Shown piece by piece: positions 27,137-29,059 of a DNA stretch of 34,954 nt (within the stretch, counting starts at the first letter, position 1; each line of letters opens with the position of its first letter). The translations under genes were made by a program, and so were the position numbers. The stretch is from Cenarchaeum sp. SB0675_bin_21 (GTDB taxonomy: Archaea; Thermoproteota; Nitrososphaeria; Nitrososphaerales; Nitrosopumilaceae): assembly GCA_009843815.1 (NCBI GenBank), contig VYCS01000045.1, positions 1 to 34,954 on the forward strand. The letters run 5' to 3'. Below the pieces are notes generated by a model. It did not search any database. It was not told where the DNA came from and was given only the letters and a program-made list of their open reading frames with translations.

Positions 27137-27272
27137 TATTGAAGTGTCATGGTTGTGAAATATAACCTATTGGCGGTAATCTTGGGTTCTTGTGGCTTGG
27201 TATGTTACATGCAGATATGTAGCTCTGCATCTTGAGTGTCTTTGTTGTTATAATGTGTGGCGGTTTTCTATA

Positions 27273-27280
27273 ATTTGTAA
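27273..27280 (+). repeat. Left copy of 8-bp target duplication
   Basis: ATTTGTAA immediately left of the element, identical to 28751-28758 immediately right of it. A perfect direct duplication flanking inverted repeats is the mark of a transposition with staggered cuts 8 bp apart. Confidence 0.85.
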
Positions 27281-27302
27281 GGGAATTATATACAAAAGTA
27301 CA
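27281..27302 (+). repeat. Left terminal inverted repeat
   Basis: A 22-bp sequence starting GGGAATTATATAC and ending AAAAGTACA. It is the reverse complement of 28729-28750 apart from one base (A/G at the twelfth to thirteenth position). The tnpB stop codon (27286-27288) and its last four to five codons lie within this repeat. Confidence 0.88.
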
Positions 27303-28641
27303 CAGCCCCGGCTGCACACTCAAGCCTTTTCTGACGACCTTGTTGTATAGAACGGAGCATGGCGGGTGTTGGTTTGTAGCCCTCCTTATGCCCCGGCCGT
27401 CTTAGGACGACCTTCCCAGCCGCCCGATGCAAAATATTCCAGGCGGCATTAATATCCGCGTGGAATACCCTGGTACAATTAGTGCAAATGAATTTGTCGC
27501 GCGTGATACGCGACTCTGAGTCTACGTGTCCGCACATATGGCACGTCTGGCTCGTATATTTGGCCATCACCCCGCATAGCGGAATTCCCTCCCTCTCACA
27601 TCGCTGCGCCAACTTCCTTAGAAACTCACCAAGTCTGTTCTCCCGCATGGAGCGATTCATGGCGCGTTTGTAATTCCCGCCATGTGTAGTCATGTCCTGT
27701 ATAGATAATATCTCGGCTATGATGGCATCCGCACCTTGTACGATATATGATACCGTCTGGTTTATGGTGTTTACGGCGATGCCATCAGCCTTCCTGTATA
27801 ATTGCTTTATTTGGTAGTTTAAAACACACCACTTCCGGCCATGCCGTACCTTGTGGTCGCGTATACTCTTGAGAGCGTCTATCTCCCGCAGTATTTCTCT
27901 GTGGCGCGTGTTGTGTATTGTGACATTGCCGTTTGTGTCAACAGTGACTGCCAAGTGCTTACCTCCCACATCCACACCCCGTACTACACCCGTATTACGG
28001 TGCGGCTTTACCGGTTCATGCACTGCGATATGTAATTCAAACATGTGGTCGGACGGCTTTGTATGCTTGTCCACCCGTTTGGTGACATCAACTATCTTGA
28101 ATGACCGCATATCCAATGATGTATTGATTGGCTTGGCGGTCTTTACTATACCATATCCGGGTATTCGTACAGTATGATCATCCTTCCGTACAGGTGGGTT
28201 TGCGCAACTAAGTATGATACGGCCGTCTTTACGGCGGTATGGAGCGTGGTTGGAGTTATCATCCATAACTCTTCTACATGCGATGGAGGCATCCTGTATG
28301 GCGCCACGGCCAAACGATACAGGACATTCGCGCAGCCATGTATGTTTGGCGCGCCACTTCGTAAGCTGTTTATACATGCCGTACTTTAGTCTCCTCTTTG
28401 ATGGACCAAAGTCATATACCTGGTAGTAATCGTCCAGTGTACTGGATGTAAAACTATCTAGTGTGTTTGGTAGTTTGAATGGCTGCAGGATATCAACTAC
28501 CACCCTCTCCATATATTCGCCATCAAACAAATACTCTGAAACGGCGCGGTTGTACACATACCGTGTAACATGGCCCATGCGGTGCGCCCACTCTACAAAC
28601 AACTTATCCCTTCGCAATGGTACCTTGACTATCCGTATCAT
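27286..28641 (-). CDS. tnpB: TnpB-like RNA-guided RuvC nuclease (OrfB)
   Basis: A 451-residue OrfB/TnpB protein with an intact active site. RuvC-I Asp is D224 (GVDVGGKHLAV), RuvC-II Glu is E310 (AIIAEILSIQDM) and RuvC-III Asp is D396 (FHADINAAWNI). The zinc ribbon is C367/C370 (TCHMCG) and C386/C389 (CTNC). The N-terminal wedge region is present. TnpB proteins cut DNA under guidance of an omega-RNA made from the 3' end of the gene. A TATA-like TTTAA (about 28664-28668) lies 26 bp upstream of the ATG. The C-terminal codons run into the left inverted repeat. A GC-rich hairpin CAGCC-CC-GGCTG at 27303-27314 sits just inside that repeat and could belong to the guide-RNA scaffold. Confidence 0.95.
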   Translation of the reverse strand: MIRIVKVPLRRDKLFVEWAHRMGHVTRYVYNRAVSEYLFDGEYMERVVVDILQPFKLPNTLDSFTSSTLDDYYQVYDFGPSKRRLKYGMYKQLTKWRAKHTWLRECPVSFGRGAIQDASIACRRVMDDNSNHAPYRRKDGRIILSCANPPVRKDDHTVRIPGYGIVKTAKPINTSLDMRSFKIVDVTKRVDKHTKPSDHMFELHIAVHEPVKPHRNTGVVRGVDVGGKHLAVTVDTNGNVTIHNTRHREILREIDALKSIRDHKVRHGRKWCVLNYQIKQLYRKADGIAVNTINQTVSYIVQGADAIIAEILSIQDMTTHGGNYKRAMNRSMRENRLGEFLRKLAQRCEREGIPLCGVMAKYTSQTCHMCGHVDSESRITRDKFICTNCTRVFHADINAAWNILHRAAGKVVLRRPGHKEGYKPTPAMLRSIQQGRQKRLECAAGAVYFCI

Positions 28642-28728
28642 AATGTGTAATACGGTATTGTGGTATTTAAGGGGATTGATGTATCACGAAATCTGTGTTG
28701 GGTCAACATTGACTCTCAAAACAGAGAC

Positions 28729-28750
28729 TGTACTTTTGTATGTAATTCCC
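28729..28750 (-). repeat. Right terminal inverted repeat
   Basis: TGTACTTTTGTATGTAATTC plus CC, the inverted partner of 27281-27302 with one mismatch. It lies about 88 bp upstream of the tnpB ATG. Confidence 0.88.
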
Positions 28751-28758
28751 ATTTGTAA
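28751..28758 (+). repeat. Right copy of 8-bp target duplication
   Basis: ATTTGTAA, identical to 27273-27280. The match stops at eight bases: the next outer base differs on both sides. Confidence 0.85.
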
Positions 28759-28846
28759 CTGTCTTGTTATACTGCGCTACAATAATACCCGTCATTATTA
28801 TAGTAAAACCGAATAAACTATAACAAATAATCGTATACTGAACCAA

Positions 28847-28974
28847 GGTTCTTGTGCAAACGCGGGTATTTCCCGATGCGCACCTTACATGTCATGCCAG
28901 GAAACGATGGTGCGTGCAGCGCCCCGCCCTCTGCTCGATGCTTGATGGTTCACAGGGGAGCTGACACAAGAACC
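28847..28974. ncRNA. Candidate 128-nt structured RNA
   Basis: The gap 28751-29059 has no supported gene but a locally GC-rich block. It is closed by a perfect 10-bp inverted repeat, GGTTCTTGTG (28847-28856) with CACAAGAACC (28965-28974). Inside are a hairpin CGGG/CCCG (28863-28866/28872-28875), a stem CGCACC/GGTGCG (28879-28884/28909-28914) and a CCCT/AGGG stem near 28928/28954. A closing stem around several hairpins, standing out from AT-rich flanks, suggests a folded RNA. I checked for 5S rRNA, SRP and tRNA hallmarks and did not find convincing ones. The strand is unknown. Confidence 0.38.
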
Positions 28975-29059
28975 CTCCGCATCCAGGCGCAAAACACCTG
29001 CATTTGCACGCGAATCTAATCTTGCAAGCATTAATTAGCTGATTGTAAACTATTGTAGT

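Follow-up and report, generated by a model that had tools for sequence, protein, structure and literature searches.

How does a gene for TnpB come to travel in an element with inverted ends and a target duplication? TnpB is an RNA-guided DNA cutter and the ancestor of Cas12. In prokaryotes it is known as the partner of IS605/IS607 transposases, and IS200/IS605 and IS607 elements have neither inverted ends nor target duplications. The question is raised by a 34,954-nt stretch of contig VYCS01000045.1 from the sponge-associated archaeon Cenarchaeum sp. SB0675_bin_21, the whole of which we call the window. Direct reading and a repeat search delimited a unit of 1470 bp at 27281-28750; its inverted ends are 22 nt long (21/22 complementary), and tnpB is its single gene. 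The most fitting description of the unit is a non-autonomous transposon of IS1595 type with one gene, for an active-looking TnpB. An earlier note on this DNA had described the same structure, with a perfect duplication outside both ends and one catalytically intact tnpB, and this description was correct, coordinates included: the protein has RuvC residues D224, E310 and D396 as well as the zinc-finger cysteines, and it matches the NCBIfam model guided_TnpB (NF040570) at 130.6 bits, above the cut-off of 100. The note had also proposed to trace the element through other copies of its ends, through full DDE elements sharing them and through empty sites.

The window's genome (G000) is a 1.6-Mb draft of 48 contigs; G001 and G002 are congeners, and contigs are C-numbered and stretches L-numbered below. 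The unit has 23 DNA matches in the window's genome, of which eight are complete or nearly so in length. At least seven additional copies match at both ends, and many copies are partial. The terminal 22-mer, allowing up to three mismatches, occurs 24 times in this genome against no occurrence of a reversed-letter control, which argues that the inverted ends are not due to chance. Homologous copies of the unit terminate at the identical base. The perfect duplications differ among copies: ATTTGTAA in the window, TACAGAAG on C8, ATAAGTAT on C10 and ACATCTTA on C41, with GACAAATT and CAACTTAG around same-ended copies on C38 and C44. The copy on C28 (L013) lacks a duplication, and its flanks pair with those of single ends, from copies at contig ends, on C20 (L023, AAAAGATA) and C15 (L017, GTTCTTAA). 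These swapped flanks indicate recombination between copies or misassembly, not an exception to the duplication rule.

Shorter forms were also seen. A 380-bp miniature element (L053:1651-2030, C12:47450-47829) has ends of the same type, no tnpB and the duplication TAAATTTA. Remnants with a right end only, including the predicted guide RNA region described below, lie at L019 (C14:12818-13011), L057 (C18:51411-51601) and L062 (C44:15086-15355). The 40 bp at L058 (C33:23364-23403) are made up of two GGGAATTATATA-type ends that face each other; they may be what an extreme deletion left behind.

For the C10, C38 and C44 elements, we joined the two flanks and searched for them across the genus. All three occupied loci are present in G002 without the insertion and with no end sequence nearby. 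The alignment continues through the junction at the C10 locus and through the duplication at the C44 locus, and at the C38 locus the two flanks lie about 217 nt apart.

The window unit carries tnpB only and no DDE_Tnp_IS1595 transposase. No Y1 transposase (PF01797) was found in the three genomes of the genus; this domain was found in 5 of 14 control genomes. Matches to IS1595-family DDE genes number 12 in G002, four in G001 and two in the window's genome. Two IS1595 genes in G002 have an element start reading exactly GGGAATTATATAC (13/13) 56 nt upstream, and two more begin with GGGAATTATA or GGGAATTATATGG; the distance from these starts to the gene match is 54-61 nt. The G002 transposases match NCBIfam NF033547 at 174.5 and 157.4 bits. 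One IS1595 element is complete (G002 C160, L174:2740-5433): it measures 2694 bp, has perfect 24-nt ends starting GGGAATTATA and an 8/8 duplication, AAACATAT, and carries a DNA methylase and an Eco47II-like restriction gene as passengers. The terminal 10-13 bp of the tnpB unit are identical to those of the congener's IS1595 elements (GGGAATTATA(TAC) ends in G002). On G002 C69 (L176:1313-2771), an IS1595-type left end and a broken transposase are joined to the right end of a family-A element and the 3′ part of its tnpB.

From these data we infer that the unit was mobilised in trans by an IS1595-type transposase. This is well supported by the different perfect duplications, the coincidence of the ends with those of IS1595, the lack of Y1 in the genus and the unoccupied congener loci. 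The proposal of the earlier note, that a DDE transposase acts in trans on a prokaryotic tnpB in an inverted-repeat element with 8-bp duplications, appears sound, having survived all tests run; among the families it had listed as makers of 8-bp duplications, IS1595 fits the window unit. We rejected an intact IS1595-like open frame on C37 as the mobiliser, its inverted ends being unrelated, and IS481-like genes adjoining two elements as the transposase, their positions being outside the element edges.

We performed a blind scan around each tnpB that required inverted ends and 7-8 of 8 duplicated bases. The scan was positive at 15 of the 32 tnpB positions of the window's genome, and several others are truncated or rearranged copies; shuffled control loci gave 0.01 hits per locus. 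Altogether the genome holds about 44 TnpB-domain matches and at least 21 tnpB units with inverted ends and 7-8/8 duplicated bases, a count in which the duplications of the C15 family-B unit and of some T4 units were read from printed flanks. The units fall into about six tnpB/end families; those at L062, L064, L086, L094-L098 and L235-L241 represent several families other than that of the window unit. Family B tnpB is about 31% identical to that of family A, the family of the window unit, and the ends of both have a common GGGAATTATATAC core. The ends of the other families read TGGGCTGTGACGTTATCT (T1), GGAACTGTCAAAAAGTAGG (T2), GGTTCCT (T3) and GGTTCCTCCCGCAAAGTCGGG (T4); the T4 TnpB has 520 aa. 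Four comparable units, family-B-like or T4-like, are present in G001. The same scan of tnpB loci, with 1500 nt of flank on each side, revealed no convincing unit in other genera of the same archaeal family. Weak end-pattern hits in genera g9, g15 and g18 were rejected as chance from their positions inside housekeeping genes. In a tree whose deep support is weak, tnpBs borne between terminal inverted repeats form at least two groups. A 1054-bp unit bounded by T1-type ends (L112:1501-2554, C9:4808-5861) contains no tnpB; it adjoins, and probably cuts, an IS481-like integrase gene.

The ends of T2, T3/T4 and a G001 element (GGTTCCGTTGCAAA) resemble the IS6 end pattern of a GG tip, TGT and CAAA (PMC7986276), and 8-bp duplications are likewise common to both. 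IS6-like DDE genes are present, but none was found with those exact ends and a duplication; for T2/T3 ends the search of IS6-like genes gave a one-sided match only, with no duplication. A link of IS6 to the T2 and T3/T4 ends is only a lead. IS6-like DDE proteins are encoded at L103, L105 and L107 of the window's genome, those at L103 and L107 with SWIM zinc fingers, and an unpaired T2-like end, GGAACTGTCAAAAA, lies downstream of one IS6-like gene.

The insertion sites themselves carry an asymmetric mark. Read in the orientation of tnpB, the base preceding the duplication is G at 14/14 family-A left ends, 11 in this genome and three in G002. The equivalent base on the right side is G in 2/13 cases (Fisher p 6e-6 against the left). 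At TnpB-less IS1595 or miniature ends it is G in 1/6 (p 4e-4), and one further end, read later, has T. Family T4 shows the motif TA in 7/7 cases, one T4 copy being read with a one-base shift, and family T3 the motif TTG in 4/4, one rearranged copy being excluded. Testing came only after the motif had been seen in the data; corrected for positions and letters, the p-values are about 5e-9, 1.5e-5 and 1e-4. The motif tracks the tnpB family and not the ends, since A and B have the same end core and different motifs, and T3 and T4 behave likewise. The earlier note overlooked both this asymmetric motif adjoining the duplication and the wide occurrence of the arrangement: many tnpB families have the same habit.

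Because the two ends are near-identical and the motif nevertheless follows the orientation of tnpB, it is hard to credit to the transposase. The readout of a guide from the right end would depend on that orientation, and the natural reading is that the motif is a target-adjacent motif (TAM); the guide would then be made of the duplication and the flank. The insertion-site marks suggest that TnpB helps the transposon to hold on to its site.

The protein has been kept by selection. The RuvC D, E and D residues are retained in 14/14 aligned family A and B copies, and the median ratio of non-synonymous to synonymous divergence (dN/dS) among copies is about 0.19, i.e. purifying selection, which indicates that the TnpB protein was kept working. 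Mean dS falls toward the 3′ part of the gene: in family A it is 0.36 there against 0.96 upstream, and in family B 0.26 against 1.17. The drop sets in ahead of the inverted repeat, which is what an RNA encoded in the 3′ part of tnpB would lead one to expect. The 3′ region shows conserved helices, with 94.8% of alignment cells paired against 34-53% in slid controls. Single-strand folding of this region gave z-scores of -1.3 to -2.6, which are unconvincing alone, and we placed weight on dS and the alignment. A guide RNA from the 3′ end of the element is predicted on this basis. The right-end inverted repeat also contributes the tnpB stop codon (TATATAATTCCC), which lies 5 nt from the edge in 14/14 family A and B elements.

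We put the probability of the whole model, a tnpB transposon of IS1595 type that is moved in trans and retained by RNA-guided cutting, at roughly 0.7. A trans-supplied IS1595-family DDE transposase would recognise the GGGAATTATATAC ends and insert the unit with an 8-bp target duplication. The RNA loaded into TnpB would derive from the 3′ end of tnpB itself, cross the terminal repeat and reach into the duplication and flank; its guide would be the duplication plus the right flank. An intact target would have the short family-specific motif (G for family A) directly before the bases that were duplicated, and TnpB would cut this unoccupied copy; repair of the cut site from the occupied copy would restore the element. 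The occupied site would be spared at the left end, where the guide matches eight bases only, and at the right end, where the terminal CCC of the element stands in the place of the motif.

Several observations weigh against this model. The family-A motif consists of one strong base, which is weak for a TAM, and none stands out cleanly in family B. The predicted RNA shows modest covariation: cells with two-sided changes exceed shuffles (2/500 as high), whereas the numbers of pairs and pair types show no such excess. In the window's own 48-contig draft genome we found no intact IS1595 transposase with GGGAATTATA ends; the IS1595 matches there are a broken remnant on C29 and the open frame on C37. 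Trans-mobilisation in this genome would then be past, or its source is absent from the draft.

These points have to be set beside what other explanations achieve. If tnpB were the passive cargo of an IS1595 miniature transposon, the motif would be the target choice of the transposase; IS1595 members do make A/T-rich 8-bp repeats (PMC12561309), and the genus has IS1595 elements with other passengers, namely the methylase and Eco47II-like enzyme of L174. Such a target choice would have to follow the orientation of tnpB despite near-identical ends, be absent at TnpB-less ends and differ between tnpB families with common ends. Passive cargo also fits poorly with purifying selection on TnpB and with constrained synonymous sites at the guide-RNA end, and we consider it unlikely. 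A family-specific motif at a fixed distance from the insertion could alternatively mean that TnpB directs insertion by RNA-guided homing, the nuclease picking the site and the transposase following. However, the duplications and flanks are all different, a guide from the donor flank points back only to the same site, and retention after insertion is the simpler account of the motif, so that we give directed insertion very little credence.

A further possibility concerns two events, in which a tnpB unit of IS200/IS605 or IS607 type jumped into a miniature inverted-repeat element and the composite then multiplied. Capture must have occurred somehow, given several tnpB families with different ends, and the tree with its two or more groups of such tnpBs, although weak in deep support, agrees with this. 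The tnpB stop codon, however, is provided by the element ends and sits 5 nt from the edge, and no leftover spacer is seen. A two-step composite is the least probable of these alternatives; it would in any case rival only the origin of the element and not its present function.

The features of the unit are collected in Table 1. Adjoining it, at 28846-28988 of the window, is a 140-nt sequence starting GGTTCTTGTGCAAA that has about 12 copies in the genome, some within T3 elements; it has 10-bp inverted ends, and no duplication was seen around it.

Table 1. Coordinates of the tnpB unit's features and edges in the window.
Feature	Position	Strand	Remarks
Terminal inverted repeat, right end (tnpB orientation)	27281..27302	-	GGGAATTATATACAAAAGTACA; 22 nt, 21/22 against the other arm
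Terminal inverted repeat, left end (tnpB orientation)	28729..28750	-	TGTACTTTTGTATGTAATTCCC
Target duplication, tnpB 3′ side (right end)	27273..27280	.	ATTTGTAA, identical to 28751-28758; with the flank, predicted guide start
Target duplication, tnpB 5′ side (left end)	28751..28758	.	ATTTGTAA, perfect 8 bp
tnpB, 451 aa, predicted RNA-guided endonuclease	27286..28641	-	PF07282 and NF040570; RuvC D224/E310/D396 and zinc finger intact
Predicted guide (omega/re) RNA scaffold, covering the 3′ end of tnpB together with the inverted repeat	27281..27430	-	dS drop, conserved helices
Predicted guide: duplication TTACAAAT, then flank TATAGAAAACCG	27261..27280	-	Inferred from the motif position 5′ of the duplication
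Putative target-adjacent motif GACAG, G directly 5′ of the duplication	28759..28763	-	G in 14/14 family-A left ends

With IS200/IS605 and IS607 elements, including their tnpB-only relatives, the elements described here share the nuclease family, the presence of many copies that hold tnpB alone, a predicted 3′-end guide RNA reading out of the element and a motif on the 5′ side. They are unlike IS200/IS605 in having inverted ends and a duplication in many copies, in a genus without Y1 transposase, and unlike IS607 in having these ends and duplications and containing tnpB only. For IS1595 members, ends beginning with GGGG and A/T-rich 8-bp repeats have been described (PMC12561309). Like IS1595 (ISApl4/IS1016-type and archaeal members), the window unit has GGG-starting ends, an 8-bp duplication and the terminal bases of the congener elements; unlike it, the unit has no transposase, and its cargo is a predicted RNA-guided nuclease. 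Fanzor, a TnpB relative of eukaryotes and their viruses, is the sole or an extra gene of inverted-repeat, target-duplicating DNA transposons, of which non-autonomous forms are known (Bao and Jurka 2013, PMC3627910; Yoon 2023, PMC10711439). The window element has the same arrangement; it is archaeal, however, and presumably not a Fanzor. The duplication of Fanzor1 is reported to lie within the RNA scaffold (PMC10711439), whereas the motif position here predicts that it is the first part of the guide. A literature search, with most subscription papers outside reach, returned no earlier prokaryotic tnpB in IS1595-type elements, which does not prove novelty.

On balance we lean towards a broader view, in which several TnpB lineages exchanged IS605/IS607-type transposition for travel in inverted-repeat transposons of DDE type (IS1595, perhaps IS6) and act there as TAM-dependent retention devices with a guide that starts at the duplication, a prokaryotic counterpart of Fanzor. 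If TnpB does also serve DDE transposons, RNA-guided retention would be a portable service usable by any transposon, as is already suspected for eukaryotic Fanzors. Each nuclease has many natural insertion sites, from which its TAM would be readable in the genome, and the persistence of TnpB without a transposase would become a testable question.
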